DNA of 64,000 nucleotides, from positions 2,200,979-2,264,978 of the forward strand of contig NC_087383.1 of assembly GCF_963675165.1 (NCBI RefSeq), read 5' to 3'. The notes below the pieces were generated by a model. That model did no database searches and had not been told where the DNA came from. It saw only the letters and a program-made list of their open reading frames with translations. Shown in pieces: positions 15,326-64,000 of this stretch (position 1 is the first letter of the stretch; each line of letters opens with the position of its first letter). This DNA comes from Halichondria panicea (Eukaryota > Porifera > Demospongiae > Suberitida > Halichondriidae). A program made the position numbers and the translations under genes.

Positions 15326-15700
15326 AATGGACACTAGACTCGCTGGCCACTCCCATCATCACTATCTTGAGGATTGGGACTGGTCAACTGCCAATCTGCG
15401 AGTTGTTCTTGTGGAATTTTAATTAGTTGCATGACATCATCTTGTGGTTTGTGCGGTTGACCAAAGTTGCGTAACTATCAAGTGAATGTGGGTTATGTCC
15501 TGTGGTTTATCTAACACAAAATAAGACCCAGCCCAACTACAACGAATTACGTGGGCGAAATATGTCACATGACATTGCTTCTGCACTGTGATTGGTCATT
15601 ACCGATTTCGGTAATGAGAACAACTCGCAGATTGGCAGTTGACCAGTCCCAATCCTCAAGATAGTGATGATGGGAGTGGCCAGCGAGTCTAAATGGACAC
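15326..15700. mobile_element. Foldback MITE with a 9-bp target duplication (Mutator-like)
   Basis: Inverted arms of about 75 bp start TAGACTCGCTGGCCACTCCC and lie at 15335-15408 and about 15618-15691. The 9 bp AATGGACAC occurs directly on both sides (15326-15334 and 15692-15700). A 9-bp duplication with long inverted arms is typical of Mutator-like elements. No coding sequence is present. Confidence 0.75.
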
Positions 15701-16098
15701 CAGGTCTTCAACATGATTTTCAACCTCCAAAAGAAGCGATCTCTGGCTTCAATAAGTTTTAAAAAGTGCCGCTTTAATTAAAGGTCTTACGGTAACCACA
15801 TTTCTTACTTGAATACGTCGGGTTCATTACTGACAGGGCAGCATTCTCAGCCTTAAACCGTGCAAAGGAACAGAAAACATGATCCACGACCTTTAATACA
15901 AGGTATTAAACGTAAACCAAGAGATGAACCAGACAATCATCTATGGCTGATAAATTAACTCACCATCTTTCCAGCCGGAGAATGCTGTAATACTTTAGCA
16001 ATGGAGCCAGGTTTTGTCTCTAGCTAGCTAGCTCTAGCTCTGTACGTACTCTGTGGGGTATGTGAAAACAATATGTCTTTGGTGGGTGTGGTGGTAAA

Positions 16099-16156
16099 TG
16101 CAAAAAGTGGGTGTATCTCAGTCTTAGATATCTGAGATACACCCACTTTTTTTGCA
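16099..16156. promoter_or_regulatory. Conserved hairpin upstream of NLR copy 2
   Basis: Same structure as at 929-985, with one extra A in the left arm. It ends 76 bp before the ATG. Confidence 0.6.
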
Positions 16157-16231
16157 AGTCATGCCAAAAACAACAAGCACCCAATATATTTCAGAGCTAG
16201 CTAGCTGCAAGGCACAGATTTATTTGCTGGA

Positions 16232-19196: not shown

Positions 19197-19312
19197 TTGA
19201 TTGATTATTAATTGTGTATTCATTAGATTATTAATTTATAATTAATTGATTATTATTAATAATTAATGTTTAGTTATAATTATATTATGATTATTGTTGT
19301 TATTAATTAATT

Positions 19313-19318
19313 AATAAA
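19313..19318 (+). terminator. Polyadenylation signal of NLR copy 2
   Basis: AATAAA lies in the same AT-rich context as in copy 1, followed by a GT-rich tract. Confidence 0.5.
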
Positions 19319-19329
19319 TGTTAATTAAT

Positions 19330-21611
19330 TTGTTGTGTTATGCATCTAATCTCTATCATTGGTCAATATAATTATAGCACATGTACAGATGGTGACGAGT
19401 GAATTCAATGCTTCCTACTGACACGGAGAGCATGTCATGCACTAGCTGTATGTATGTAACTGAATACACTATTGTAATAATGCTATAATCTCCACCTAGC
19501 TAGCCTCCTTCACAGGCTTTCAAGAGAAGTGCGGCCTGGGCCAGGATCGAAGCTAATCTCGACATGATTTACTTTTGACAACAATTATATTATTACTAGG
19601 ACAATTTACAAAACAGTTAGTGCACAGAAGACTAGAAGTATGTCGGCACATTACATAACAATTACCTAAAAACAAATCAGTTGGAATTGGTCAATATAGC
19701 ACAGTAATAATGATGGTTTAAATTCAATGCTCCCTACAGTGTCACAGAGAGCACATGCACTGTACGTATAAAACTGTCAATGAATGTAGTGGAAATCCAA
19801 TTTAACGCTCTGTCGATTTTTGTTTATAGGAAGATGAGCAGATTAACGTTCACTTTGGCCCTTCCAAACATCTTCATGATTGCTAGGCCCTCGTATTGCA
19901 GCTGAAGGAGGTCCTGTGTGGGGAGAAGAGAGGGCAGTGAAACACTTCAACTAGTATAAGACAAAGAATGCATGTATTTGTAAGACAAATGAATACATGT
20001 ACTTACATACACCGTACAAGCATACCAACACTATACCTGACACAAGGCAGTAAACTTCTTGAACACTTTACGTACCTACTAAATTACACCACACCACTTT
20101 TTGTAGCTGGGTAGGTAATGGTCGTAAATATTGTGAGTGAAAATGTGCATGCTGTTTTGGTGAGGAAAAGTGATGACCTTTTCTGAGGTAAAAAATTCAC
20201 CACTGTACAAAAGTTCCAATAGTAGAAAAGCAGCTGACCTTTAATTGCAAGTTGGCCTGACCACTTTAAAGTTGCTTGCTACGCCCCTGCATGAAGATTG
20301 GGGCATAAAAATAAGTTAATAGCCTCACACTGGAGGAATTGTTAAAGTCTAGATTAGTAGTATAGTCTGAGCTTCAGTCAAACAGTGGACAAAGTACGTA
20401 CCAGAGCAATTAATGGCACATGTGATGATTATCATGTTGTTTAATAGAAGTATGCTAGTATAACGGCTACTCAAGTATACGGAGACTCACAGAGTGGGTG
20501 GAGCATATCTCCATGGACGCTGATGTATGGATGATTGGCTTGGTCACGTCAGAGTACGCGTCGATACCCAGCTATCTGTCCGGGGGGTCCACAGTCGATG
20601 CTCGCTGGAAGAACCCTCTGTGGGGGGTACAGTGAGAGTCATAATTATTATTATGATTCAGTTCCGGGAATAAATGTCATAGAAAGTCACTAATTGACTC
20701 ACATTTTTTCCAGTCGAGGTAAATGGAACACAGCTATAGGTTACGTCTCTGTGGGACATGTGAAATTGTGTATCAGGTTTTAAGCAACTAATAAGGATTA
20801 TCATCTATTAATCTTGTTGAGCGCACAGTCCATTCTACCCCCCGCCCACACACACCTGGTCAGTAGACAGCTGATTGCCTATCCACAACATCGAAGGATT
20901 TTATCGCGGCTATGTACTTCATTGTACAGCTGCAAGGGGAGTGACGTGTGATACAGTGTGATTCAATGAAAGTCAGTACAACACAGTTAGTGTATGTTTA
21001 CCAAAGAGGTACATGAGATTGTTCTGACAAATCATTCTTGTACTCTCTAATACACTAACAGGGTTTCATCTAGGATAACAAGTTGGGGGGGGGGGAGATT
21101 TGGGAGTGCGTAAGCGCAAGTGTTTGGCTATGCCCACTTAAAAAAAGTTGATTTAATACTAATGTGATGATGTCATTATTCTACAAGATTTGGGGGGGGG
21201 GGGAAGAACCACCCCCCCTACTAGATGAAACCCTGACTAACTGATACAGTATCAAAGATGCAACCTTTTACATGGCAAAATTAAAAACGGCCATTGTCAA
21301 AGTAATGTAGACGCAATCGGCATCATGTATAAATTGTGTATTTGGCCTAAGCCATATTCAGTACATACTATATAGCAGGTCATTTTCGTAGGTTATAACA
21401 TTCAAAACAAACAACGTCTACACACAGTAAGTGCAGTAGTAGTAGATCTAAGAGGTAGTCTAATGCTCAAGAATGATGGAACATCTTATATACATATAGT
21501 AGTCATCTGCAGAATTGTGTAGAGGAGATGTTTCACCATCTTTGAGCATTAGTTTACCTCTTAGATCTACTACTACTGCACTGCACTATACTGCACTTAC
21601 TGTGTATATAG
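19330..21611. repeat. Segmental repeat, first copy (partner at 50820-53096)
   Basis: The two 2.28-kb blocks are nearly identical at an offset of about 31.5 kb. Both carry an EFR3-like exon remnant (high ends 19913 and 51400, here reading MKMFGRAKVNVNLLIFL and stopping) and end in a foldback. The left third also matches 4170-5500. No intact gene is visible inside. Confidence 0.8.
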
Positions 21612-34768: not shown

Positions 34769-35899
34769 TTATGCCTCGAGGCGTAGCCGCATGAGGGATA
34801 GGGTAAAGCTGACTGTGTGTGTACGTATGTCTGTGTGTCTGTGTGTCTGTTCCAGCTGTAACTGCTCAACGGTTGCAATGCGACGAAAACTAACAGCTTC
34901 TATAGGCTTCTAGCCACGTTCTCTTGGATTTTGATTCGTGGATTTGCAAACTAAAGCTTCTTTCTCGAGTTATGGCTAGTTTGACTCACATTGAAGGCTG
35001 TTGCAGTCTCTTCAGAATCTTTCATAGCATCATCTGTCCGCACAAACTTTCTATTTAACATATGAGTTAGCCTTGCACTAAAGCGCTAGCTTTTTGTTAG
35101 CTACAATACTCAGAAAATATCTGTTAAAACAGCTAGCTAGCAGTTAGCCATTTGTGAAATTGATCTCTTTGGACACACCCTTTAATTATTCCTGTGTATG
35201 TAATGCGCATGCGCGCTCATTCCCCACGTGTGAGAAAATAATAATATCCAAGATCCAGATCCAGATCCTCCTGGCAGAATCATCTTTGTCTTGAAGGCCT
35301 GGTAAGCCACAAAACACTACCATAATTATAACAATATAGATAACAATATGCATGTACACAGGTCTTTTCTTCTTAGATATTATATACACTGAACTACAGA
35401 TCTTGGAAGAATCAATTTTCTTCTTTCTTGAGGTTCTAGTAAGCCACATAATACAACAATAGATGCATGTAAATAAGTCTTTTCTTCTCAGTGACTTTAT
35501 ATAGATAAGCTAACTTTAATATAAAATTCATTATAGAAACTAATATAACACTCTAATACTTTTCAGCGAAAGCAAAAACATGGCGAGAGGCATTAGCACA
35601 GCGCCAGCTTGAACACTAGTTCATACAGTTTTGACAATTGATTTTAATTAATTCTGCCATAATGCATTCAATGACAATTTAAATGCATAGAGAAAAGTAG
35701 TGAAGTATTATATACTAGTATATATAATTATGTTAGACACTATAAAAACAAAATTAATGTTGTTAATTAATTACAACTTGTCAATAGCACAGCAATAACA
35801 AAGGCTTCTCCTTGGTAACAATAACAGACACACAGACACACGCACGCGCACACAGTCAGCTTTACCGTATCCCTCGTGCGGCTACGCCTCGAGGCATAA
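34769..35899. mobile_element. TIR element of about 1.1 kb in the 3' flank of NLR copy 3
   Basis: TTATGCCTCGAGGCGTAGCCGCA at the left is inverted as TGCGGCTACGCCTCGAGGCATAA at the right, with further subterminal pairing (AGGGATA, AAAGCTGACTGTGTG). The interior has CA-rich stretches and no convincing gene. A left-truncated copy is at 62339-63425. Extra right-end pieces lie at about 36290-36390 and 63820-63910. Confidence 0.7.
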
Positions 35900-35999
35900 C
35901 AAGGGCTTCTCCTTGGTAATAATGATAAATGCTCACATCCACAGTAAATTGTCAATGAACACAAAGCAATTTGCTAGTGAAAATCCAATTTAACGCTCT

Positions 36000-36262
36000 G
36001 ATGCCTTTTGTTCATATAATTATGAGGAAGATGAGCAAATTAACGTTCACTTTAGCCCTCCCAAACATCTTCTAAACATCTTCATGATTGCCAGGCCCTC
36101 GTATTGCAGCTGAAGGAGGTCCTGTGTGGGGAGAAGAGAGGGCAGTGAAACACTTCAACTGGTGTAAGACAAATGAATACATGTACTTACATACACTGTA
36201 CAAGCACAACACTATATACCTGACACAAGGCAGTAATTTTTTTCTTCTCCTTGGTAATGATA

Positions 36263-36300
<38 letters not shown>

Positions 36301-36606
36301 CAGCTTTACCGTATCCCTCGTGCGGTAATAATAGACACACACGCACAGTCAGCTTTACGGTATCCCTCGTGCGGCTACGCCTCGAGGCATAACAAGGGCT
36401 TCTCCTTGAATTGGATAAATGCTCACATGCACAGTAAATTGTCAATGCAAGCAATTTGCTAGTGAAAATCAAATTTAATGTTCTGATGCCTTTTGTTCAT
36501 ATAATTATGAGGAAGATGAGCAAATTAACGTTCACTTTAGCCCTCCCAAACATCTTCTAAACATCTTCATGATTGCCAGACCCTCGTATTGCAGCTGAAG
36601 GAGGTC
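36000..36606 (-). pseudogene. Two tandem EFR3-like exon remnants
   Basis: The exon DLLQLQYEGLAIMKMF ends at high borders 36121 and 36606. In both, a duplicated AAACATCTTC/T stretch breaks the frame just after KMF. Between them lies a (CA)n run at about 36264-36298. A possible preceding exon (RQMENVELVFQ) lies near 36720-36755. Confidence 0.35.
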
Positions 36607-46424: not shown

Positions 46425-47594
46425 CTGAGCAGAAGAGATTATACACATTACCAGCACATCAGGTGCACAGGCAGCATGCATGTACATGTACACACAAGGC
46501 TAAGTCTGAGAGGTCACACTAGGGCAGACCAACAGTGGCTGTAATAAAGAGGTGACATGCTAACACAGGTTACATGAAACCAACCCTATGGAGACTGGTC
46601 ACATTAGACAGACAGGTTCACAAAGGTGCACAAGTGATAGTGACTTACTCTCCCCGATCTCAATGAGACTAGTAAATATCTTGGGGAGGGAAATCGGCTC
46701 CTCAGACAACCCAACCAACTTATGAGTTAGCCTAGCTTGCACTAATTTAAAGCCCTATTGATTTATTAGTCATAAAAGTGCAACAAAATCCTTGCTGCCT
46801 AGCAGCAGCCATTGTGAACTTTGACCGCTTTGGAGATATATAATTATGGCAGGAAATGCAACTTCTGTTTCCTATAATTATTGGACCAAAGCTAATTCTT
46901 CAGAGGTGCACACTTAATACACGGCAATCAGAGAGTGCAAAACTCAACTCTGCAGTTCTGGCACTGTAAGACCTCTAATTAAGGTGACCCTCCAAATATG
47001 CGACACTCTCGAGCTTAGGTAATTTTCTGACGACAGCTACGTTGACAATTATGTTTTAATGTTGCGTCCTAAATGATATAGCCACACCCTAGCATCGTTT
47101 TTGGAAAACACGTTCTAGAAATTGAGGCAAGTATAGACTGAGTAGAGCTATCCATAATCAGATACGACAACAGGTTTTTAACATAATTTTTCAACCTCCA
47201 AAAGAAGCGACATCTGGCTTCGTAATTATTAAAAAAAGTGTTGCTTTAATTAAAGGTCTTACGGTAATCATATTCTTACTTGAAAACTTGAATACGTCGG
47301 GTTCATTACTGACAGGACAGGATTCTCAGCCTCAAACTGTGCAAATTAAAGAACAGAAAACATGATCCACGACCTTACAACATAACTTAAACCTGTAGAT
47401 TTAATAACCAGACAAGTTATTATTATTGATGAACCAGACAATAATCTATGGCTGATCAATTGACTCACCCTCTTTCCATTCGGAGAATGCTGTAATACTT
47501 TAGCAATGCAATGGAGCTAAAAGCTAGCTAGCCAGGTTTCATCATAGATAAACTATGGTTTCACTCAAATGTCTTTGGTGGGTGTGGTATTAAA

Positions 47595-47651
47595 TGCAAA
47601 AGTGGGTGTATCTCAATCTTAGATATCTGAGATACACCCACTTTTTTTGCA
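47595..47651. promoter_or_regulatory. Conserved hairpin upstream of NLR copy 4
   Basis: Same stem as copy 1 with one mismatch (CTCAAT for CTCAGT at the loop edge). It ends 75 bp before the ATG. Confidence 0.6.
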
Positions 47652-47725
47652 AGTCATGCAAAACAACAACACACCCAATATATTTCAGAGACAGCTAGCT
47701 GCAAGGCACAGATTTATTTGCTGGA

Positions 47726-50702
47726 ATGGCCACTAAAGAGCAGAACCAAGGTATAAAGACTGTCATGTTTCCTTTACAGGATAAACCTAATGATTGCTAA
47801 AGCATAAAACCCTCATTGGTGATTGCTAACCTTGTGTGCTTGGCATCTATTTTCAGAGCTCACAATTGACGATCTGAAGACAGAAATGAAACTAACTGAT
47901 GAGCAGCTCAATACAGCAATACAGGAACCAGATCTACCCGAGTTAGCAGCATGTTTCGACAATGTTCACAAAGGCTATCTTGAAAAACTGGAGCTCTCAC
48001 CTGGAGAGCAAACTGACGTGAAGACTAGAGCATATGTAGATGGCACTCTGGCAGGAATGTTGCTGGCTTTGAAATTCTGGATTCTGACCAACGAACTAGA
48101 CGCCACTTTCCAAGCTCTGCTACTCATTATACTCTCCCTGCTCAAAGAAGACGTTGCTGTTCGAGTGTGCAAGTACTTGTCTGACAAATGTGAGTCTGTC
48201 ATGTGAGAGTGTGGTTAGTGTGGTCATTGTGATACCATATGTTGTGGGAGTGATTGTAACCAAATAAGGAACTGTCCACTTAATTGCTATTGTTGCACAT
48301 ACCATTGTGTATTAAGATCACCAGGAATGGTACTCACCTATTGTTTTGTTTCCCCAGACTCCACCACCTCGTGTCCTCCCTCCCGAGAGAGGGTCCTGCT
48401 GAACCACAAGCTGTCCTCGTACAGGGACTACCTACAAAGTCGCTACAGAATGCAAGTATCCACATCAGCCACACAATGGCCTCCCGTCCCAACAAAGACA
48501 ATTTTCAAACTAGCCATGATTCAGAAGGAGGAAATACAGAGAGGAAGAATCGACGATGAATTTGTTAGGCTAACAATTACGGGGAAAATTGACGATATTT
48601 TACTTCAAAAAACTCCGGTTAACTTAACTAACATTTTCCCTGAGATTGAGGATACACGAAACTTTGTGTTGATTGAAGGAGCTCCCGGCTCTGGCAAGAG
48701 CACCCTTGCTCTACACATCTGTCAGGAGTGGGCAAAGGGGAAACTGTTCCAACAGTTCGATATTGCAATCCTGGTGAGACTGAGAGATCCCCTCGTTAGA
48801 GAAGCAAAAACAATAGAAGATCTTCTCCCTTGTAGGAATTCAACACTGGCATGCCAAATAGGGGCAACAATTTCAGGGACTGATGGCAAAGGTGTACTGT
48901 GGGTGCTGGACGGATGGGACGAACTTCCTTCTGACCTCCCTAGACACTCAATCATTAACAAACTAATTCGACCAGACATGTCACAAAAAGGAGCCCTACA
49001 CGAATCAGCTGTGATTGTAACATCTCGACCGTCATCTTCGGCTGAGCTCCACCCACTAGTCTCGTCCAGGGTGGAAGTGTTGGGGTTCAATCCACATGAA
49101 CTAGAACAGTATTTCACTGAGTGTCTGAAAGGTGACTCACAAGCTGTGCAGACTCTACTGGAGAGAATTCGAGAGAACCCAGTGGTAGAAGGTAGCTGCT
49201 ACCTCCCCCTCAATGCTTCCATTGTCGTTAATTGCTTCCTTTCTGACAACCACTCCCTCCCAACATCCAACCACGGGATATTCACATCAATTGTCCAGAG
49301 CTCTCTCAAGAGATACCTCCAGGAGAAGTTGGGGAAGACCACTCCAGTGGGAGACATCACATCCCCAGACTCACTGCCCTCGGAAATCAGTACGCAGACC
49401 GTACAAATGTGTCAACTTGCATATCATGGGATCGAAAAAAACAAAGCGACATTTACTGACGGTGATTTGGCCGCTCTTTGCATTACGAAGGACATTTCAA
49501 ACGTGGGATTATTACAAACTGTTCCCAGTATCATTAGCGATGGTCATTTGGTTTACTACTGCTTTCTCCACCTGTCTATTCAAGAGCTACTGGCAGCAAT
49601 CCACATCTCTCTCATGTCTCCCAAGCAACAAATCTCTGTATTCCAGAAGCTCTTTGGGAATCCTCGATTCAGTGCAGTCTTCCAGTTTTATGCTGGTATC
49701 ACCAAACTGAGTACAAGTAGACCAATCCTCAGCAAGCTACCTCGATTCTTGTGTCCAGTTCCAGCCACTGTTTTTGATCTGGTCAGAAAGGTTGTCAAAA
49801 CTGAGAAAGAGAAGTATGGTGAGAAGCCCCTTTTGTTGTCCCTCATCAATTGTTTGTACGAAGCTGAAGACTCGCGACTGTGTGTGTTTGTGGCTAATCT
49901 TCTTAATCACAATCTAAATCTTGATTACACTACAATGAATCCTATCAACTGCCTCTCTGTTGGATATTTCGTATCAGCTTGTTCCAACACCAGTAATGGA
50001 TTCACACTTAGTCTCAGAAGTTGCTCTATTAGTGACCAAGGCTGCAAATTTCTGGTCCGAGGACTCTCCAAGTGTCCCAACTCTAATAATGATATTCCTA
50101 CAGAAGGGATACACATCGCTGAGATTATCGAGAACACTATTTCAATATCTGAATTGGATTTGTTTAATAATGCCATTGGCAACAGTGGACTTAGCACACT
50201 CTGTGAGGCCTTCTCAGCGAACATATCATTAAAGAGCCTGCACCTGACCAAATGCTCACTAACAATATCAGACGACAATGGAGCTGCCCTCTATCAACTT
50301 CTGAATACAAACAATTCCCTCGAATATCTTAATTTGTCATTTAACACAGTGACTAGCTGTCGTCACATTGCTGCTGGACTTGCAGTCAATAAGACTCTGA
50401 GAACATTGCACTTGTATAACTGTGAACTGACTGATCAGAGTATCGAGGAGCTATCAACTGGACTGATCAACAAGATTGAAACACTGTACATTAGGGGTAA
50501 TCACTCAATAACAGAAGATGGAATGAAGACGCTTGCCAGACATCTAACCACCCACTGCTCTGAACTGACACGATTGGGGATACCCTACCACCTAGGATCC
50601 TGTATCGAGACAGTATTCAGGGACGTTAACGAAGAGAGGAAGAGAAATGGACTACCCAAGATCAATGTTGATTATGTGTATGATTATGTGAGATTGTTGT
50701 GA
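47726..50702 (+). CDS. NLR copy 4: death-fold, NACHT and LRR receptor
   Basis: Exons 47726-47750, 47857-48189 and 48358-50702 join in frame to a predicted 900-aa protein. Walker A GAPGSGKST, Walker B LWVLDGWDEL and VTSRPSS are intact. The NACHT variable block is mosaic: LPCRNSTLACQIGATISGTD resembles copy 1, while DMSQKGALHESAV just after it matches copy 3. LRR exposed residues differ again (LHLYNCELT, RLGIPYHLGS). It has the longest C-terminal tail (VDYVYDYVRLL). Confidence 0.93.
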
Positions 50703-50802
50703 GATTAATTATTTATAATTATGTATATTAATTGATTGATTATTATTAATAATTAACGTTTAGTTATAATTATATTATGATTATTGTTGTTATTAATTAA
50801 TT

Positions 50803-50808
50803 AATAAA
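50803..50808 (+). terminator. Polyadenylation signal of NLR copy 4
   Basis: AATAAA in the same AT-rich context as copies 1 and 2, about 100 bp after the stop. Confidence 0.55.
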
Positions 50809-50819
50809 TGTTAATTAAT

Positions 50820-53096
50820 TTGTTGTGTTATGCATCTAATCTCTATCATTGGTCAATATAATTATAGCACATGTACAGATGGTGACGAGTGAATTCAATG
50901 CTTCCTACTGACACGGAGAGCATGTCATGCACTAGCTGTATGTATGTAACTGAATACACTATTGTAATAATGCTATAATCTCCACCTAGCTAGCCTCCTT
51001 CACAGGCTTTCAAGAGAAGTGCGGCATGGGCCGGGATCGAGGCTAATCTCGACATGATCTACTTTTGACAATAATTATATTACTAGGACAATTTACAAAA
51101 CAGTTAGTGTACAGAAGACTAGAAATATGTCGGCACATTACATAACAATTACCTAAAAACAAATCAGTTGGAATTGGTCAATATAGCACAGTAATAATGA
51201 TGGTTTAAATTCAATGCTCCCTACAGTGTCACAGAGAGCACATGCACTGTACGTATAAAACTGTCAATGAATGTAGTGGAAATCCAATTTAACGCTCTGT
51301 CGATTTTTGTTTATAGGAAGATGAGCAGATTAACGTTCACTTTGGCCCTTCCAAACATCTTCATGATTGCTAGGCCCTCGTATTGCAGCTGAAGGAGGTC
51401 CTGTGTGGGGAGAAGAGAGGGCAGTGAAACACTTCAACTAGTATAAGACAAAGAATGCATGTATTTGTAAGACAAATGAATACATGTACTTACATACACC
51501 GTACAAGCATACCAACACTATACCTGACACAAGGCAGTAAACTTCTTGAACACTTTACGTACCTACTAAATTACACCACACCACTTTTTGTAGCTGGGTA
51601 GGTAATGGTCGTAAATATTGTGAGTGAAAATGTGCATGCTGTTTTGGTGAGGAAAAGTGATGACCTTTTCTGAGGTAAAAAATTCACCACTGTACAAAAG
51701 TTCCAATAGTAGAAAAGCAGCTGACCTTTAATTGCAAGTTGGCCTGACCACTTTAAAGTTGCTTGCTACGCCCCTGCATGAAGATTGGGGCATAAAAATA
51801 AGTTAATAGCCTCACACTGGAGGAATTGTTAAAGTCTAGATTAGTAGTATAGTCTGAGCTTCAGTCAAACAGTGGACAAAGTACGTACCAGAGCAATTAA
51901 TGGCACATGTGATGATTATCATGTTGTTTAATAGAAGTATGCTAGTATAACGGCTACTCAAGTATACGGAGACTCACAGAGTGGGTGGAGCATATCTCCA
52001 TGGACGCTGATGTATGGATGATTGGCTTGGTCACGTTAGAGTACGCGTCGATACCCAGCTATCTGTCCGGGGGGTCCACAGTCGATGCTCGCTGGAAGAA
52101 CCCTCTGTGGGGGGTACAGTGAGAGTCATAATTATTATTATGATTCAGTTCCGGGAATAAATGTCATAGAAAGTCACTATTTGACTCACATTTTTTCCAG
52201 TCGAGGTAAATGGAACACAGCTATAGGTTACGTCTCTGTGGGACATGTGAAATTGTGTATCAGGTTTTAAGCAACTAATAAGGATTATCATCTATTAATC
52301 TTGTTGAGCGCACAGTCCATTCTACCCCCCGCCCACACACACCTGGTCAGTAGACAGCTGATTGCCTATCCACAACATCGAAGGATTTTATCGCGGCTAT
52401 GTACTTCATTGTACAGCTGCAAGGGGAGTGACGTGTGATACAGTGTGATTCAATGAAAGTCAGTACAACACAGTTAGTGTATGTTTACCAAAGAGGTACA
52501 TGAGATTGTTCTGACAAATCATTCTTGTACTCTCTAATACACTAACAGGGTTTCATCTAGGATAACAAGTTGGGGGGGGGGGAGATTTGGGAGTGCGTAA
52601 GCGCAAGTGTTTGGCTATGCCCACTTAAAAAAAGTTGATTTAATACTAATGTGATGATGTCATTATTCTACAAGATTTGGGGGGGGGGAAGAACCACCCC
52701 CCCTACTAGATGAAACCCTGACTAACTGATACAGTATCAAAGATGCAACCTTTTACATGGCAAAATTAAAAACGGCCATTGTCAAAGTAATGTAGACGCA
52801 ATCGGCATCATGTATAAATTGTGTATTTGGCCTAAGCCATATTCAGTACATACTATATAGCAGGTCATTTTCGTAGGTTATAACATTCAAAACAAACAAC
52901 GTCTACACACAGTAAGTGCAGTAGTAGTAGATCTAAGAGGTAGTCTAATGCTCAAGAATGATGGAACATCTTATATACATATAGTAGTCATCTGCAGAAT
53001 TGTGTAGAGGAGATGTTTCACCATCTTTGAGCATTAGTTTACCTCTTAGATCTACTACTACTGCACTGCACTATACTGCACTTACTGTGTATATAG
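50820..53096. repeat. Segmental repeat, second copy (partner at 19330-21611)
   Basis: Near-identical to its partner up to GTGTATATAG at 53096, where homology stops abruptly at the terminal repeat of the 9.2-kb transposon. Confidence 0.8.
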
Positions 53097-53236
53097 ACAA
53101 GTGGCTAAATGCAGTACGTTAGCCTGTGTAGAAAGGGTTAAAATGACCATGAATCTCATTATAATTGCACTGTAGCTAGCCTAGGGGGCGGCTAATAATA
53201 ATTATAATGTGTCGCGCAGTCCAGCGAGTCTGGAGA
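53097..53236. repeat. Left terminal inverted repeat
   Basis: Matches the reverse complement of the right end nearly throughout, with two substitutions (ACCATG/ACCGTG, CACTGT/CACCGT) and about 12 bp missing near 53200. It runs into the array through GTCGCGCAGTCCAGCGAGTC. Confidence 0.85.
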
Positions 53237-54355
53237 GTCTGGAGAGTCTTAAGAGACTTGCGAGTCTGGCGAGTCCTGAGAGTCTGGAGAGTCTGGAGAG
53301 TCTAGCGAGCCCTGAGAGTCTTGAGAGTCTGGATGGAGTCTGGAGAGCCCTGAGAGCCCTGAGAGTCTAGCGAGTCCTGAGAGACTGGAGAGTCTGGAGA
53401 GTCTAGCGAGCCCTGAGAGTCTGGAGAGTCCTGCGAGTCTGGCGAGTCCTGAGAGTCTGGAGAGTCTGGAGAGTCTAGCGAGCCCTGAGAGTCTTGAGAG
53501 TCCTGAGAGTCTGGATGGAGTCTGGAGAGCCCTGAGAGTCTTAAGAGTCCTGAGAGTCTAGCGAGTCCTGAGAGACTGGAGAGTCTTGAGAGTCCTGAGA
53601 GTCTAGCGAGTCCTGAGAGACTGGAGAGTCTGGAGAGTCCTGAGAGTCTGGAGAGTCTAGCGAGCCCTGAGAGTCTTGAGAGTCCTGAGAGTCTGGAGAG
53701 TCTGGAGAGTCTGGAGTCTAGCGAGCCCTGAGAGTCTGGAGAGTCTTGAGAGTCCTGAGAGTCTAGAGAGTCTGGAGAGTGTAGCGAGCCCTGAGAGTCT
53801 GGAGAGTCTTGAGAGTCCTGAGAGTCTAGCGAGTCCTGAGAGACTGGAGAGTCTTGAGAGTCCTGAAAGTCTAGCGAGTCACGAGAGTCTGGAGAGTCTG
53901 GAGAGTCTAGCGAGTCCGGAGAGTCTGACAAGTCCTGAGAGTCTGGCGAGTCCTAAGAGTCCTGAGAGTCTGGCGAGTCCTGAGAGTCTAGCGAGTCCTG
54001 AGAGTCTGGCGAGTCCGGAGAGTCCTGAGAGTCTGGCGAGTCCTGAGAGTCTGGAGTCTAGCGAGCCCTGAGAGTCTGGAGAGTCTTGAGAGTCCTGAGA
54101 GTCTAGCGAGTCCTGAGAGACTGGAGAGTCTGGAGAGTCCTTGAGAGTTTGGGAGTCTGGAGAGTCTGGAGAGTCCAGGGAGTCCTGAGAGTCCTGAGAG
54201 TCTGGAGAGTCTGGAGAGTCTAGCGAGTCCGGAGAGTCTGGCGAGTCCTGAGAGTCTGGCGAGTCCTAAGAGTCTGGCGAGTCCGGAGAGTCCGGAGAGT
54301 CTGGAGAGTCCGGAGAGTCTAGCGAGTCCTGAGAGTCCTGAGAGTCTGGTAAGTC
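53222..54355. repeat. Left subterminal 9-bp minisatellite array
   Basis: About 125 units of GAGTCTGGA and variants (GAGTCCTGA, GAGTCTAGC, GAGTCTGGC, GAGCCCTGA). The GAGTC core is nearly constant and the last four bases vary. The 9-bp period keeps all frames open on both strands, giving spurious Asp-Ser-Pro or Pro-Glu-Ser ORFs. Confidence 0.9.
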
Positions 54356-54533
54356 CTAGATAATGATGAGAGTCCAGAGAGTTTAGTGTGTTCTGAAAGT
54401 CTAGAGCCTGCTATAGTGTTCTCTATAGAGTAGAGTACTATGAATTCTAATCATCACAAGCACATAATAATTTCATAATAAATGGTTTTGATCAGAAAAG
54501 ATATATTATTATTTTTTTTCAGACATGTATTTA

Positions 54534-57500
54534 CTATGTACAAAGGTTACAGAGAAAAGAGTTTTCGTTTACAGGTCTCCCACACAAAGTGTGGAGCCAC
54601 AGATTGCACTTCGAACATTGAGCCCAATGAACTCGATCAGATGTACCATATTGCCTGTCATCTTCTTTGTAGCAAACAACACATACATTAATGTCCACTT
54701 TAGACAGATTTTCTTTACAGTTAGCCATAGCAGCAACTGACGGTTTAGCAATCCCTGTATGTCGCGGCCTCTTGTTCTTTATTGACTGGAATCTGATTTG
54801 AGTTTCATTAAGCGCATTAGGTGAAGAACGGCTTTTGATTGGTAAGGTGGGATGCTCTTTCCTTGTTTCATATGCCTTAAGAACATTAATACCGCTTTTG
54901 ATATGCTCAGTGACACTTCGAACTGCATCATTACTGTCAGAAGATGTGAGTAGAGTGTGCAACTGGTGCAAATGATCAAATGCACTTTTCTTCAGCATAT
55001 CAATTTGACCTCCAGCATTGGAGAGGATGGTACTTAAGTGTGTAGGATCATTAATGAGGGAAATAGCTTTTTGTCTCGATTCCTCAGTGCTTATTTCAGG
55101 AGAAATGTCTGAGCCTGATGAATCATCTATAGAATTAGAAATCTCTGACCTATCCGTTTTGTCTGAAGCTGTAGTTAAAGAATGACTTTCAGTGGCTGAG
55201 TCTGCATGCACTTGTTGCATTGTTCGTGGATTTGGCCAGAAAGCATGTAGCATGGATGTGTTTACATATTGTAGTATGTACAACCGAGTCAACACATGAA
55301 CAATTGTACATGTGGATGCATACATCACATGCTGCGCACCTCAGTTTGCAAGAGAAAGGACAGGACTGATTCTCCAAATGAACAGTGTACATTCTTCCGG
55401 AGGTTGTCTGAGAACTTATCTTCCATTCTTTGTTTGAAATCGATTGGAGATGACAGCCTTCAGAAATCATCTTAGAACTTTCTTTGTGCCTTCGATTTAT
55501 TTCATTAATACGATAAGTTGTTTTCCCTTTATGAACTTTTTGTACTTGTTCAAAGGCCTTATTACGAGCAAGCTTCAAAAGAATATGTATAAGTTGATCA
55601 AGTCGTCGATTCTTCTTTCCTTCTAGATACACAATTTTCAGTACTCGATGAAAAGATTCCAAATACATGTTTGTGTTCACAAACTTGCCTATTCTGTAAC
55701 AGGTTGCCCACTCTTCCACCCTTGGCGTGTAATTTCTTTGAAAGTAAGAGCAAAATTGTGGGTGACAATTTGATAAATTTCTGCAACAAACTTCGGAATT
55801 TGTCAGGTTGCAGTTCTGTCAGTAAAGTTCTCAAATGGTGATATACGTCAATTCGATTTTCATTGAGAGGAATACGCTCCTTAAGAGCTTTTCTCCAAGC
55901 ACGATCTACGTGCCAGGCACACAGCAGTTTTGTGGTGTTGATACTGCTGTACGCAGCTGTCCAAGCACTCCAGTACTGCGTCGCATCATCTGACATGAAC
56001 ACTTGTGTGGAAAGGGGACCAGTTCTTTTCCTCAATTCTAGGAAAAAATAGGCCAGCATACAAGTGTCTTCTCGTGTAGTTATAGCCCACGCAACTGGAA
56101 TTCCTTCCCCAAAATCGTCAACTACCATAACAACAGTTACCAGCAGGTATTCGTAATAATTAGTTGAATGGGTGGCATCTACACAAATTACATTTCCTCC
56201 AAAAGCTTTCATCATCTCGAGCTGAAACTGCAGGGGCGGATCCAGGGGTGATTTTGAGGGGCTGAAGCCCCCCCTTTTGAAAAAACTACCATGTGTTGTA
56301 GTCTGACTCTACAACAATTTTGCCACCAATTATGCATCTGTAGACTCACTTGAAATCACTTGAGAGATGCTAGACAACAGCTACTAGGAATATAAAGGAT
56401 CTAGGGTAGCTAGCTGGACGTACCTAGCTAGCTAGCTAGCTGTACGTACGTACGTACATCTGATCAGTACAGTATCACCATAGTATTAAAAGTAAGTGCA
56501 GAGGTCACGTCAACGTATTCTACTCATTAATATGAAAGTTCAAAGGTCAAATCTTGCAAAAAATTCGCCTCTGGCGAGGTTGTTGCCCTGGGCGGCTCTG
56601 CCGCCCTCGTACGGGGCTTCGCCCCTTTCTAGCTAGCCCCCCCCTTTTGTTTTTCCTGGATCCGCCCCTGAACTGGGTTTGAAGTGCCAACAAAAAATCG
56701 TTGTCTTTCACTCCTTCTCTTTCACTAGACACCCCTTGCGGTTTGAAAGCAATAACTGGACAAAATTCCATGCTTTTCAGCTCTTCGACCCATGCAGCAA
56801 CACTTGTGTAGTCGTTTGAGTGCTTTTGTACTCCATCCACATTGCACACTCTTTTGATATTCTGGATATCTTTTTTTGTGCTATGATGACACCGTTTCAG
56901 GCCACCTTCATCGACACTGTCTCTAATGTCATCTAGAATTCGATCTATCGTCACCCCTTGCAACAGTTTGTTGAATACAGCTAGCTTGAAGTCCTTAGGG
57001 AGTCGTAAATGCATTACATCTTCTTCTGGAGTGTGGCCATAATGCGTGGAACAAAAGTTAACCAGCACATTTCCTCCTGTGTGCTGACTTACAATTAGGT
57101 GAGCTGTACAGTAGACACCTAATTTTTCCGAGCCCTGCAACTTCGAATTTCTGAGGCCTTTTGTGGTTGATCTAGATTTTCCTGATCTGTTACAATAGTA
57201 GTACCAAGTACGTACTCCACAGCGGACACGGGATCCACACGGCTGCACATACTGTGTGCAGGTTCGAGTTTCTTCACCCTCCTTCCATCTTAAAAACTCT
57301 GAAAAGCCAGAAAACTCATGTTTCTCTGTATAAACAGTTGTTTCGTGAGCTTGTGTTAGATGTTGGATTAACTCTTGTACGAAACGAAATCTGTAAGAAA
57401 GAAACTAATAATAATGTGGAAGTTGCAGTTGCATGATCTGTGTAATCATGTGCCATTAAGTATTCAATCGATCTAACCTGGAGTCACAAGTAATACAGCA

Positions 57501-57656
57501 GATATATCCAATTTCTGATGTTTCTTGTGAAGAGATTTCTTGGGTCAGATCTAGACTCTTCCCTAGAGCCTTTTCTCTGTGTTGCCTTACATGTCGAGCT
57601 AGACTACTGCTGTGTGCATAACTGCTTGAGCAAGACTTGCAAATATAGAGCGACAT
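54534..57656 (-). pseudogene. MULE-type transposase with C2H2, DDE, SWIM and PHD-like modules (broken)
   Basis: Exon 57478-57656 starts MSLYICKSCSSSYAHSSSLA, a C2H2 finger, and splices to 57390 downward, completing a second finger (CCITC ... HLTQAH). A DNA-binding-like region follows. The MULE DDE core includes VDATH (first Asp near 56178), FMSDDATQYW, the family CxxH motif CAWHVDRAWR, and a likely Glu in LLTELQPDKF. Then come VNTNMYLESFHRVLK, the SWIM finger CSCVDSVVHTTICKHIH, and a C-terminal PHD-like finger (CVVCYK ... CSKCNLWLHTLCG ... CNLC). It is disrupted by a nested MITE (56231-56670), a 1-nt frameshift near 55770 and another between about 55190 and 55260. It catalyses, or once catalysed, cut-and-paste transposition. 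Confidence 0.85.
56226..56675. mobile_element. Nested 440-bp MITE inside the transposase
   Basis: CAGGGGCGGATCCAGG at 56231 is inverted at 56670 as CCTGGATCCGCCCCTG, flanked on both sides by the direct repeat AACTG (56226-56230 and 56671-56675). Removing it and one repeat restores a continuous frame across the gap (TQFQLEMMK), so the insertion came after the transposase was functional. It has no ORF of its own. Confidence 0.8.
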
Positions 57657-57868
57657 TGAGCCAAATCCAGAATATTATACACAGAGCAAACTATGATTTT
57701 GTTGAGACTTCTCCCGCTTGTTCAGGCTATTATAGACTGTAATTATGTACAGCACATGCGCGTAATCATCAATTAAGTATTAATTTCGCTGCGAGTACCT
57801 AATTGTTGTTCCAAAGAAGAACCAGTTCGAAGAACAAGCTCATCATTGTATCATTGTGCCATATAACC
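57657..57868. promoter_or_regulatory. Divergent promoter region of the transposon genes
   Basis: Only 212 bp separate the transposase start from the ATPase start, so both promoters must lie here or overlap the first exons. The stretch contains ACAGCACATGCGCGTAATCA; no TATA box is convincing. Confidence 0.45.
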
Positions 57869-60800
57869 ATGTGTGCATCACGAGAGACTGATGGAGACAG
57901 CAGTAGTATTTTCGGGGATTCTAATTCCACAAGCTCACAGGTGAGCATGCAGAGCTCACATTTCATTGCACATATTAATTGTTGAAGCCACATGCAGTTT
58001 GAGAAAATTCAGTTTAATTATTGTGCTGCATGTATATTCTTTCAGGATTCTGGAAAGGGAGAATTTTTTATTAATTGGGAACTCGGAACTGCTGGGAAAT
58101 CAGCAAAAGGAGAAGATAAGGCCATGTGTGATTTTGCAATCAGGCTGAAGACACTAGTGGAAGCGAGAGAATTGACTGGGTTTTACTGTGAAGTGAAACG
58201 CGAAATGGATGGTGTTAGCAGGTACATCTAACCCTCCCTCTAACTATATACAGTTAATTACAGCACATGTGACACACCTTGTAGCTTGTTAAGTGCATGG
58301 GTGTGCAATACCTCAATCTGTATAATATACTGCATACATCTTGTATGTATACATACTTTATCTTTGAGGGATTTGTATAATTATAGCTGGTCAACTGCAT
58401 GGGTATTTCCATTTTCCATTATAGTGCAATAAAAATTATTAAAACATACTTTCCACTGACTTATAGCTCAGCCATGTGCCTATAAATGATATTAAAAATG
58501 TAGAGTTTGGAACCCACAAATAAGTATAGTTGTGGTTCCAACAATAGGCTGAAGTTGTGACTGTGGGATATCTGATATCACCAGAGCATAGTTTTCTCAC
58601 ATCATTTTTCTACTGTCATGTGTGCAGAAAAATATTATTGTTTTAGAGCACATGCAGGACGTGCTACCAATGCAATATGCTACTAAACTGATCATTTGTT
58701 TCAAACATGCAGGAGATGTTTCTTCACAAGTGACTCTGCAAACCAGAAAGTAAAGTTCATCAGCCAGCTGAACAAGTCTTTTGGGAGCGGTGGTGGATTC
58801 ACTTGTGCTTTTTCAGACTCCGAACTCACCAGATTTCTCCAGTTTCTCAAACGAGAGCATGCTTCGGATATTAAGATCTCCAAGGGAACCACCGTTATAG
58901 GATGCCAGCCTGGTAGCGATGTATGGGTGTTTGGTGATGACATCCATATCAAGTCTAACGGAGAGTGCATATCTGCAACGGAAAGTCCCTATGTGTGGTC
59001 ACCCAATTGCATAATGGCACAGTGTGACAAAGTCAGCTTCAATGAGCTTGTGCCGAAACTTTCCATCCAAAGCAGCTCAATGGAACCTTTGAAGGATCTC
59101 CTCGACGGCCTACAGATAGCCACCAAGCACAATTATCCGCGTGCTCTCCTTGTTCTTGGTGGAACCATAATGTCTTGTCACTACACCCACATTGCTGCGA
59201 AGTATGGAGGATTTCCAATTGTGCTTGCTGTCGGACCAACTGAGACTGGCAAGTCAACTGCTCTAAAGGCTGCCCTGAGTATTTTTGGGATGGCCAAAGA
59301 TGCCTTTTACGTTGAAGGTTCCAATGCTTATTTTATGGAAAGAAGTGCCCTCTCGTGTATGCCATATGGTATTGATGAGGCCACTGCACACAGCAAGCAG
59401 TTGGATGTTGTCAAGCTCATTGTCGACCTTCATGGAGCGGCTAAAACAGCCAATTTGCGTCGTGGTGCGTTTCTTCCACTGTCTGTACCTGTCATAGCAA
59501 CCAATGACAAATTGAAGGATGATCCAAGGTGTGTACATAATTAGAATGTTATACACCACAATTTTCATATAATTATATACAGCTATTTATACCTGCACTT
59601 TAAACTTTAATCACAGAGTGAAGAGCAGATGTGTGGAAATTTCCTTCCGAAGGCCAAAAGTTGGTCCCTCTACCGTTGAGGAAAGAAAGTCGAGACGTGA
59701 CTTAGAGAGTTCAATCATTAACGGAACGCCTTCTGGCATTCTTCACTGGGTGATTTCTCTAAGACAAGACCTCGAAAAAGATGGAGAGGCAGAGGTGGAG
59801 AGGATTTTGCAGCAGATCCTTCAGCTGCCTCAGTTTAGTGAACAACCCAGACTAGCGCAAAGCTGGGCTCTTATTCTTTACTTTACATTCAAGGTAAGTT
59901 TATTAATTAGTGCGCATTTGTTGATTGTTATTGAACCATACATGAAATCAAGATGGTACGCGCCTGTGGGAAGGATGAGCTGGAGAATGAAATAATGGCG
60001 TGTGTAACTCTAAATAGCACTGCAACTGAGGAAGGTACTGACAAAACTAGTTCTCTTGAAAGTGTTGTGACTGACACAGTCAGGGAAGTGCTTGAGTACT
60101 GCAATGGAAAAGTCATAAGACAGGTAATAATACTGTTAGTAATTGAGTGTGCTGTGGTGATACCTAATTCCACTTGCATGGTTTCTGTTTACTTAATTAA
60201 AGGTGTTTCTAACCACTCATATTGGTGCTCTGAATGGCTTGCACTCTTACATAATAATATGCATACACTGTAACATACATATATATATACAGGTACTCAC
60301 CTTTGTCAGAACAAGGTTGATGGTAAGCAACCAAGAAGTTGTGGCAATCCATCTTTCTCACAACGGGCTGAAATTTACTCATTCCCTTGATGAAATTAGA
60401 AATGCTGTCGACCAACTTGAGTGGGGGAAAGGCACGGACAGCAAAGATTTCCTGAATCCTACCAAACATAGTGGGACGTTAATAAATAGGAAAACAAGTG
60501 ATCGCGTAAGAGCTGCCAACATCTTTCTTAACAAACTTCCTAAAAATCTTCACGATGTACTTAGAAGGGGTTAGTTTGTCTTTACCTATTTTGTTTATAG
60601 TATCAGTGTCACAGAATAAACATTGTGTACACACGCAGTGACCGACCCTGAGACTCCATTGGCTGAAGTAATTAAGTGTGGGCTGGAAGTGGCTGAAAAA
60701 ACTCCATGCAGTGAGGAAGAGGAAAACAGTGGGCCAGGCTTAACTACTGAAACAGAAGCTGTCGATGGGGACAAGAAACATGCTACTGTAACAACATCAC

Positions 60801-60928
60801 TGACTGAAACAGACGGTACATCTACTGATGGATCTGTCGATGATGGGGACAAGAAACGTGCTACAAGATCCTCGACTATTGTGCCTCCTTTTTCCAAAAG
60901 ACTTTGCAAGGGGAACAATATTTACTAA
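57869..60928 (+). CDS. P-loop ATPase gene carried by the transposon
   Basis: Seven exons join in frame: 57869-57940, 58046-58221, 58713-59528, 59617-59893, 59953-60123, 60293-60569 and 60639-60928, predicting 692 aa. The acceptor of exon 5 (ATCAAG) is weak and its start is least certain. Walker A GPTETGKST (about 257-265), acidic Walker B YGIDEA (about 301-306) and a sensor-like VIATN (about 343-347), followed by VKSRC, suggest an AAA+ or SF3-helicase-like ATPase. The C-terminus is acidic and repeats GDKK. I recall similar uncharacterised proteins in invertebrate genomes but know no function. Its place inside a MULE suggests a role in target choice or transposition. All exons are open, unlike the transposase. 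Confidence 0.7.
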
Positions 60929-61062
60929 CAATACTGGTTGAATATTATTCAGTGCGCTAAATTATATATAAGTGCACGAAATGTGTTGTTTTGTTATAAT
61001 CAATCTGTTGTCGTTACGTTCTACCATGCATGCATTGAATTGACAAATTTAATTATAAGACT

Positions 61063-62205
61063 AACTCGACTCAGCAGACTCTCCAGACTCTCCGGACTCT
61101 CCGGACTCTCCAGACTCTCCAGACTCTCCAGACTCTCAGGACTCTCCAGACTCTCCGGACTCACTAGACTCTCCAGACTCTCAGGACTCTCGGGACTCTC
61201 GGGACTCTCAGGACTCTCAGGACTCTCAGGACTCACTAGACTCTCCGGACTATAGCTAGACTCGCAGGACTCTCCAGACTCTCCAGACTCGCAGGACTCT
61301 CCAGACTCTCTAGACTCGCAGGACTCTCAGGACACTCAGGGCTCTCCGGACTCTCAGGACTCCCAGACTCTCAGGACTCTCAGGACTTGCCAGACTCTCA
61401 GGACTCTCCAGACTCGCAGGACTCTCAGGACTCGCCAGACTCTCCAGACTCCCAGGGCTCTCCAGACTCGCCAGACTCTCAGGACTTGCCAGACTCGCAG
61501 GACTCTCCAGACTCTCAGGACTCTCAGGGCTCTCCAGACTCTCCGGACTCTCCGGACTCGCCAGACTCTTCAGACTCCCAGGGCTCTCCAGACTCTCAGG
61601 ACTCTCAAGACTCTCCAGACTCTCAGGACTCGCTAGACTCTCCAGACTCTCGGGACTCTCAGGACTCTCAGGACTCGCTAGACTCTCCGGACTATAGCTA
61701 GACTCGCAGGACTCTCCAGACTCGCAGGACTCTCAGGACACTCAGGGCTCTCCGGACTCTCAGGACTCCCAGACTCTCAGGACTCTCAGGACTTGCCAGA
61801 CTCTCAGGACTCTCCAGACTCGCAGGACTCTAAGGACTCGCCAGACTCTCCAGACTCCCAGGGCTCTCCAGACTCGCCAGACTCTCAGGACTTGCCAGAC
61901 TCGCAGGACTCTCAGGGCTCTCAGGACTCTCAGGGCTCTCCAGACTCTCCGGACTCGCCAGACTCTCCAGACTCCCAGGGCTCTCCAGACTCTCAGGAAT
62001 CTCCAGACTCTCCAGACTCTCAGGACTCGCTAGACTCTCCAGACTCTCAGGACTCGCCAGACTCTCAGGACTCTCCGGACTCTCCAGACTCCCAGGACTC
62101 TCAGGGCTCTCCGGACTCTCCAGATTCTCCAGACTCGCAGGACTCGCAGGACTCTCCAGACTCCCAGGACTCCTCAGGGCTCCTCAGGGCCAGGACTCGC
62201 TGGAC
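61063..62205. repeat. Right subterminal 9-bp minisatellite array
   Basis: The inverse orientation of the left array (GACTCTCCA, GACTCTCAG, GACTCGCAG and so on). It contains a higher-order repeat of about 440 bp: GACTATAGCTAGACTCGCAG occurs near 61248 and again near 61690 with matching order of variants after it. Confidence 0.9.
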
Positions 62206-62338
62206 TGCGCGACACAGCGTATTCGTGATAATATTATTATTAGCCGCCCCCTAGGCTAGCTACGGTGCAATTATAATGAGATTCACGGTCATTTTAACCC
62301 TTTCTACACAGGCTAACGTACTGCATTTAGCCACTTGT
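62199..62338. repeat. Right terminal inverted repeat
   Basis: Partner of 53097-53236, ending CATTTAGCCACTTGT. Directly outside it begins ACTGTGTGTGTATG, which matches the interior of the TIR element near 34812. Confidence 0.85.
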
Positions 62339-63789
62339 ACTGTGTGTGTATGTGTGTCTGTGTGTCTGTGTGTCTGTTCCAGCTGTAACTGCTCAACGGT
62401 TGCAATGCGACGAAAACTAACAGCTTCTATAGGCTTCTAGCCACGTTCTCTTGGATTTTGATTCGTGGATTTGCAAACTAAAGCTTCTTTCTCGAGTTAT
62501 GGCTAGTTTGACTCACATTGAAGGCTGTTGCAGTCTCTTCAGAATCTTTCATAGCATCATCTGTCCGCACAAACTTTCTATTTAACATATGAGTTAGCCT
62601 TGCACTAAAGCGCTAGCTTTTTGTTAGCTACAATACTCAGAAAATATCTGTTAAAACAGCTAGCTAGCAGTAGCCATTTGTGAAATTGATCTCTTTGGAC
62701 ACACCCTTTAATTATTCCTGTGTATGTAATGCGCATGCGCGCTCATTCCCCACGTGTGAGAAAATAATAATATCCAAGATCCAGATCCAGATCCTCCTGG
62801 CAGAATCATCTTTGTCTTGAAGGCCTGGTAAGCCACAAAACACTACCATAATTATAACAATATAGATAACAATATGCATGTACACAGGTCTTTTCTTCTT
62901 AGATATTATATACACTGAACTACAGATCTTGGAAGAATCAATTTTCTTCTTTCTTGAGGTCCTAGTAAGCCACATAATACAACAACAGATGCATGTAAAT
63001 AAGTCTTTTCTTCTCAGTGACTTTATATAGATAAGCTAACTTTAATATAAAATTCATTATAGAAACTAATATAACACTCTAATACTTTTCAGCGAAAGCA
63101 AAAACATGGCGAGAGGCATTAGCACAGCGCCAGCTTGAACACTAGTTCATACAGTTTTGACAATTGATTTTAATTAATTCTGCCATAATGCATTCAATGA
63201 CAATTTAAATGCATAGAGAAAAGTAGTGAAGTATTATATACTAGTACATATAATTATGTTAGACACTATAAAAACAAAATTAATGTTGTTAATTAATTAC
63301 AACTTGTCAATAGCACAGCAATAACAAAGGCTTCTCCTTGGTAACAATAACAGACACACAGACACACGCACGCGCACACAGTCAGCTTTACCGTATCCCT
63401 CGTGCGGCTACGCCTCGAGGCATAACAAGGGCTTCTCCTTGGTAATAATGATAAATGCTCACATGCACAGTAAATTGTCAATGAACACAAAGCAATTTGC
63501 TAGTGAAAATCCAATTTAACGCTCTGATGCCTTTTGTTCATATAATTATGAGGAAGATGAGCAAATTAACGTTCACTTTAGCCCTCCCAAACATCTTCTA
63601 AACATCTTCATGATTGCCAGGCCCTCGTATTGCAGCTGAAGGAGGTCCTGTGTGGGGAGAAGAGAGGGCAGTGAAACACTTCAACTGGTGTAAGACAAAT
63701 GAATACATGTACTTACATACACCGTACAAGCACAACACTATATACCTGACACAAGGCAGTAATTTTTTTCTTCTCCTTGGTAATGATAG

Positions 63790-63820
<31 letters not shown>

Positions 63821-64000
63821 CAGCTTTACTGTATCCCTCGTGCGGTAATAATAGACACACACGCACAGTCAGCTTTACGGTATCCCTCGTGCGGCTACGC
63901 CTCGAGGCATAACAAGGGCTTCTCCTTGAATTGGATAAATGCTCACATGCACAGTAAATTGTCAATGCAAGCAATTTGCTAGTGAAAATCAAATTTAATG
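62339..64000. repeat. Segmental repeat of 34812-36474 with a left-truncated TIR element
   Basis: Near-identical to the region downstream of NLR copy 3 at an offset of about 27.5 kb. The TIR element has lost its left end (its right TIR ends at 63425). An EFR3-like exon remnant ends at 63647, and a (CA)n run at about 63790-63820 is shorter than its partner at 36264. Confidence 0.8.

Follow-up and report, generated by a model that had tools for sequence, protein, structure and literature searches.

A MULE-type DNA transposon of the sponge Halichondria panicea with a helicase-like P-loop ATPase gene beside its transposase gene

Here, we identified a DNA transposon of the MULE superfamily in Halichondria panicea which is of the autonomous type, has a Rehavkus-like anatomy and carries a two-gene mobility module consisting of a MULE transposase gene and a P-loop ATPase gene. 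The best explanation for this arrangement, to which we assign a probability of about 0.55, is that the second gene encodes a helicase that processes or copies the DNA of the element. The two genes are mobilised together, enclosed by the same ends, and their pairing was found in three families of elements in this genome.

A transposase alone is generally regarded as sufficient for eukaryotic cut-and-paste transposons. That the ATPase has stayed beside the MULE gene in three or more distantly related families suggests that a second enzyme is required or helpful, and the kinship of the ATPase with bacterial replication proteins links two worlds of mobile elements. How MULEs gain copies thereby becomes a directly testable question.

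Structure of the element

The element lies in the right part of the window, i.e., the whole stretch of 64,000 nucleotides analysed (G000:C7:2200979-2264978). Its left end starts at 53097 with ACAAGTGGCTAAATG and its right end finishes at 62338 with CATTTAGCCACTTGT, the first 52 bp of the tips being identical between both inverted ends. Most of each inverted end (~1.1 kb) is a tandem array of units of about 9 bp, and the two genes are placed head to head between the arrays. The exon limits of the MULE gene in the window copy were set by comparison with another copy of the element (L018). The features are as follows:

53097-62338, no strand: complete element of 9,242 bp, from one inverted end to the other
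53097-53225, plus strand: terminal tip of the left inverted repeat, from the tip search and the comparison of the ends
53226-54357, no strand: left tandem array with GAGTCTGGA-like units of about 9 bp
54534-57656, minus strand: MULE transposase gene (exon 1, 57478-57656; exon 2, 57390-54534)
56231-56670, no strand: secondary insertion of 440 bp in the MULE exon, absent from the same place in L018
57657-57868, no strand: intergenic region of 212 bp common to both genes, between the two start codons
57869-60928, plus strand: helicase-like P-loop ATPase gene, 692 aa, 7 exons
57869-57940, 58046-58221, 58713-59528, 59617-59893, 59953-60123, 60293-60569 and 60639-60928, plus strand: ATPase exons
61077-62188, no strand: right tandem array, also with units of about 9 bp, in inverted orientation to the left array
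62189-62338, minus strand: terminal tip of the right inverted repeat

The initial annotation had described inverted ends enclosing two divergent genes 212 bp apart, one for a MULE-type DDE transposase and the other for a multi-exon P-loop ATPase. The sequence bears out this description, with domain PF10551 above the Pfam cut-off in the former and seven exons joined across GT-AG introns in the latter. One alternative junction is possible in the ATPase gene model; the junction used agrees with the NCBI protein P0001 (LOC135341260), which is 100% identical to the ATPase over 93% of the length.

Copies in the sponge genome

A search of the 131-Mb assembly with the left tip returned at least 17 matches, 14 of which are the paired ends of seven full elements, the others being an incomplete end on C12 and a copy on C16 that measures 67 bp from tip to tip. 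In six of the seven full copies, the ends are abutted by exact target site duplications (TSDs) of 8-9 bp, as against 0 of 42 mismatched flank pairs used as a control; the window copy is without such a duplication. By eye, the six duplications have no obvious sequence in common. The ATPase is present in each of the seven full elements. The initial annotation had looked for support in several copies bounded by the same ends, each with both genes, and searching the genome with the terminal repeat and the proteins yielded seven of them; the copies never carrying the ATPase that it had named as counter-evidence did not appear among the full elements. As all seven close copies of the ATPase are inside the element, it is a gene of the element, and a host-gene reading of the ATPase of this family is ruled out.

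The copies are young, since their DNA is 98.2-99.9% identical across the two-gene core, with the exception of a 414-bp piece of L023 (96.6%). The ATPase frame is uninterrupted in five copies, while L019 has a deletion and L023 has a frame break and a stop. Exon 2 of the MULE gene is open in two of the seven (L018 and L020). The same two MULE frame breaks are common to four copies (the window copy, L019, L021+L022 and L024); in addition to these, the MULE gene is broken by the 440-bp insertion in the window copy and bears a large insertion in L021+L022. A large deletion is present in the MULE gene of L023.

For the ATPase, changes within the family amount to 7 synonymous and 9 nonsynonymous in all seven copies (exon versus intron, p 0.67) and to 6 synonymous and 5 nonsynonymous in the five copies with intact frames (p 0.23), where 2.59 nonsynonymous changes are expected per synonymous one. 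These changes are too few to demonstrate selection on the ATPase within the family.

The C16 copy (L026 5533-5599) consists of 67 bp from tip to tip with an 8-bp TSD and has neither arrays nor genes. Provided that this copy did not shrink after insertion, the tips may by themselves suffice for movement in trans, and the terminal arrays are perhaps dispensable in trans. The partial end on C12 (L025 5497-6070; C12:3232496) lacks the ACA start, is ~85% identical to the ends of the window family and is an older remnant.

The MULE transposase

The PF10551 domain was detected at E 6.9e-11 in the window copy and at E 2.7e-11 in L018. The residues D, D, CxxH and E, the catalytic motifs of MULE transposases, are all kept in the MULE proteins of the window family, C12, C15, C2, C1b and C1a; in the relic on C10, CxxH is the only one of them that is readable. 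A C4HC3 spacing of the PHD type occurs at the C-terminus of the transposase (Pfam PHD E 0.13, below the cut-off). The TSDs, 8-9 bp in six of seven copies and 9 bp in the second family described below, fall within the 8-11 bp of the MULE superfamily.

The ATPase and its relatives

Walker A, Walker B (Asp-Asp or Asp-Glu), the Asn of motif C and a later Arg are kept in the ATPases of the window, C12, C1 and the sponge Dysidea avara, as in SF3-type helicases. With these residues conserved, the 'SF3-like' label of the initial annotation is reasonable. Domain DUF927 (PF06048) was found below the Pfam cut-off of 22.6 bits, at 14.3 bits in P0001 and 20.6 bits in its D. avara relative P0002. Among PHROGs, the matches were to DNA primase/helicase families (best E 5.1e-4 for P0001 and 2.3e-5 for P0002). 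No Pfam family of the TnsC/MuB type matched the sponge proteins at E<=1, a weak test as such families are possibly too distant.

Protein searches, each of which scored the ~8,000 candidates with most shared words and may thus have missed relatives, retrieved P0002 (30% identity), then the cyanobacterial P0003, which is located on a 3.3-kb contig, and then P0004. A tblastn search with the Dysidea protein matched two cyanobacterial plasmids, and one of the matching proteins is annotated as a bifunctional DNA primase/polymerase. A profile of the sponge ATPases matched a cyanobacterial set, made up of P0003 and the two plasmid proteins, over 385 columns with a probability of 99.6% (E 4.5e-24); with a Gastranaerophilales set, the match covered 121 columns at 97.4%. 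The members of the bacterial sets had been chosen by their similarity to the sponge proteins. Nothing in the phage records matched P0002 at E<=0.01, and among viral contigs the pattern matches in 599 and 3 stretches included none that was confirmed. Two structure models of the ATPase had mean pLDDT values of 36.5 and 38.6, too low for a reading of the fold, and a search of solved structures gave a single match (E 0.93), taken as chance.

In two Gastranaerophilales loci with relatives of P0004, a Prim-Pol gene is adjacent (L066, Pfam 4.1e-18) or a Prim-Pol-like region is seen by eye in the same ORF (L067), and an ORF for a serine recombinase lies downstream in both (L066 by Pfam, L067 by eye). 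In L069, Prim-Pol is within the same protein (1.3e-6), and in L068, a relative on a Nostoc plasmid, we looked for Prim-Pol and saw none. Judged by sequence similarity, the ATPase has its nearest non-sponge relatives among helicase-type ATPases from mobile elements of bacteria, and in several of these Prim-Pol is fused or adjacent. As a separate observation, L066 3105-7825 and L067 3170-7784 both combine Prim-Pol, a DUF927-like ATPase and a serine recombinase, with Prim-Pol and ATPase in separate genes in the former versus one ORF in the latter.

Distribution of the gene pair among families

A second family is represented by an element of 11,848 bp at C12:1777432-1789279, which has its own terminal inverted repeats (TIRs) unrelated to the window ends, 20-bp arrays inside these ends, a perfect 9-bp TSD (TTCTTTTTG) and the ATPase and MULE genes head to head. 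Searching the genome with its end sequence matched only its own two ends. When directly matched with the window element, its MULE protein is 36% identical over 815 positions and its ATPase 39% over 270. A third family is present as relics on C10 and C15, whose DNA is ~85% identical over both genes, again head to head; on C15, a stretch of ~5.3 kb with an rve match separates the two genes. MULE identities among the three families are 39-45% in a stitched alignment, and several nodes in the trees of the families are weak (support 41-72). More generally, the MULE of the window family has genomic relatives at ~40% identity, and its ATPase likewise has relatives elsewhere in the genome.

The pairing is not the result of one recent capture, because the second family and the decayed third family keep the layout. 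The pairing that the initial annotation had seen in one element thus recurs head to head in three families; its term 'composite' transposon was the wrong word, as both genes are common to old families and show no sign of recent joining.

For some MULEs of this genome, no ATPase match was found in the stretches searched. The C2/C1 family, a related one that was copied recently, is 99.7% identical over 4.79 kb, and its MULE is 43% identical to that of the window family; no ATPase match was found in the 6 kb upstream of the MULE on C2, and 1.5 kb upstream was read on C1. For the MULE at C1:5152355, of which 1.5 kb upstream was also read, whole-genome searches placed no ATPase nearby. There are at least 31 PF10551 matches in the genome, 12 in the families discussed here and 19 outside them, and a comparison of coordinates placed none of these 19 within 20 kb of an ATPase match. 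A link with the ATPase for every MULE is therefore ruled out by the 19 listed matches.

Conversely, several ATPase relatives without a detected MULE occur in the genome. For the ATPase at C1:4680521, the 4 kb upstream gave no MULE match (best E 1.0) and the 4.5 kb downstream contained no inverted array; a 2-kb array of 8/17-bp units is located upstream of it (L064 157-2178; C1:4676656-4678677). A further repeated set of ATPases was observed at C1 15.66-17.17 Mb, where three pairs of matches lie ~9 kb apart within the pair, at C8:4860695 and at C13:4146549. No MULE, PF00589 or rve match adjoins this set, the rve search having scored 150 of 389 candidates.

Comparison with known mobile elements

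In Foldback (FB-NOF) of Drosophila, a MULE-type gene is enclosed by long inverted ends built from short tandem repeats, and the sponge element is similar in both respects. Foldback is not known to contain a helicase-like gene.

As given in PMC6446971, Rehavkus has one ORF, a PHD finger, a 9-bp TSD and a minisatellite before the 3' TIR, and its hosts are Arthropoda and Annelida. Compared with this description, the sponge element is similar in its 9-bp TSDs, the C4HC3 PHD-type pattern at the transposase C-terminus, a minisatellite near the end and an animal host, but differs in having two genes, a sponge host and arrays at both ends. As TSD, minisatellite and, by its spacing alone, the PHD finger are in common while the one-ORF trait is broken, we call the element Rehavkus-like but do not file it as Rehavkus.

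A second gene is also found in MULEs such as MuDR of maize and the fungal Mutyl (second gene MutB). Unlike that of the sponge element, their second proteins are not described as ATPases in PMC6446971, a paper in which the words ATPase and helicase have no occurrences. MULE-Co of Filozoa is likewise a two-ORF MULE and is close to animals (PMC6446971, Table 1); by the description in that table, its second ORF is given as unknown, and a helicase there is possible. In the titles and abstract openings of the papers listed, no MULE carrying an ATPase or helicase gene is described; an entry for one in Repbase Reports is conceivable.

On the bacterial side, the closest systems are the mobile-element proteins that combine Prim-Pol with a DUF927-type ATPase (All3500 and PrimQH families, PMC5862659); in the cyanobacterial set, the ATPase is homologous to the sponge protein over 385 columns. 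In those modules the primase is combined with plasmid replication or a recombinase, whereas the sponge element has a DDE transposase, and a primase was not detected in either of its two genes. Cch of SCCmec also carries DUF927 (PMC7581432) and may be a comparable protein.

Possible role of the ATPase

Our preferred reading is that the MULE transposon uses its second gene as a helicase. From its homology, the protein would be an ATP-driven DNA helicase of the kind paired with Prim-Pol primases in bacterial plasmids and integrating elements. The MULE protein would cut the ends and insert the element with duplications of 8-9 bp and, with less certainty, the helicase would work on DNA of the element itself in the course of transposition or afterwards; these are the least certain steps. 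Perhaps it loads on the terminal repeat arrays or the cut ends as putative binding sites, and it may then unwind the element and help to copy or finish it after transposition. According to PMC5862659, DUF927-type ATPases are predicted to be replication helicases of mobile genetic elements (MGEs), and one staphylococcal member is a proven helicase. Cch2, a helicase of a different type, binds short direct repeats at a putative origin (PMC7581432), which as a parallel for the sponge arrays is only an analogy. A more far-reaching version is a transposon-replicon hybrid, in which the MULE mobilises the element while an initiator-type helicase of bacterial-MGE descent reads the arrays as iterons and drives element-specific copying, so that amplification would occur by replication rather than by simple cut-and-paste; we regard this version as quite improbable.

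Other roles were also considered. A DDE transposase together with an ATPase in one element is the plan of Tn7 and Mu, and a pairing conserved across families would suit the proposal of the initial annotation that a TnsC- or MuB-like ATPase guides the MULE transposase to its sites. This was not borne out, as the bacterial plasmid proteins matched by the sponge profile are of the primase-helicase type. Target choice is not supported because the nearest relatives are helicase-type, several of them primase-linked, and no likeness of the ATPase to TnsC or MuB is recognisable in the weak Pfam test at E<=1; the six TSDs without an obvious common sequence by eye also speak against it, and such a role is very unlikely. 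It is also conceivable that the ATPase was captured once, long ago, and has been hitch-hiking without helping, which fits the lack of demonstrable selection within the family and its broken state in two of seven copies. However, it has been kept in three families with MULE identities of 39-45%, always head to head, and Walker A, Walker B and motif C are intact in the second family, which makes a passenger doubtful.

Second genes of some plant MULEs encode regulator or anti-silencing proteins, and an accessory protein of this kind might use ATP for chromatin or transcription and not for DNA copying. Coupled expression is suggested by the common 212-bp intergenic region, one relative family (C2/C1) shows no ATPase, and second ORFs, often antisense, are given for several MULE groups in Table 1 of PMC6446971. 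Helicase-type motifs and bacterial relatives point instead to DNA unwinding, and we consider a regulator unlikely.

Flanks of the window copy and secondary insertion

Window positions 19510-21611 match the left flank of the window copy at 99.3%, and positions 34812-36480 match its right flank at 99.1%. Both places belong to a duplicated segment of the window, where a distance of 13.2 kb separates them, and the two flanks are thus not neighbours in the duplicate; the simplest reading of the unmatched flanks is a deletion or rearrangement beside the window copy. The window contains large local duplications, for example 15696-21611 versus 47166-53096, and the element is placed at the junction of the duplicate flanks (51000-53096 and 62339-64000). 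The 440-bp insertion in the MULE exon has the ends CAGGGGCGGATCC with AACTG on both flanks and is probably a small non-autonomous transposon.
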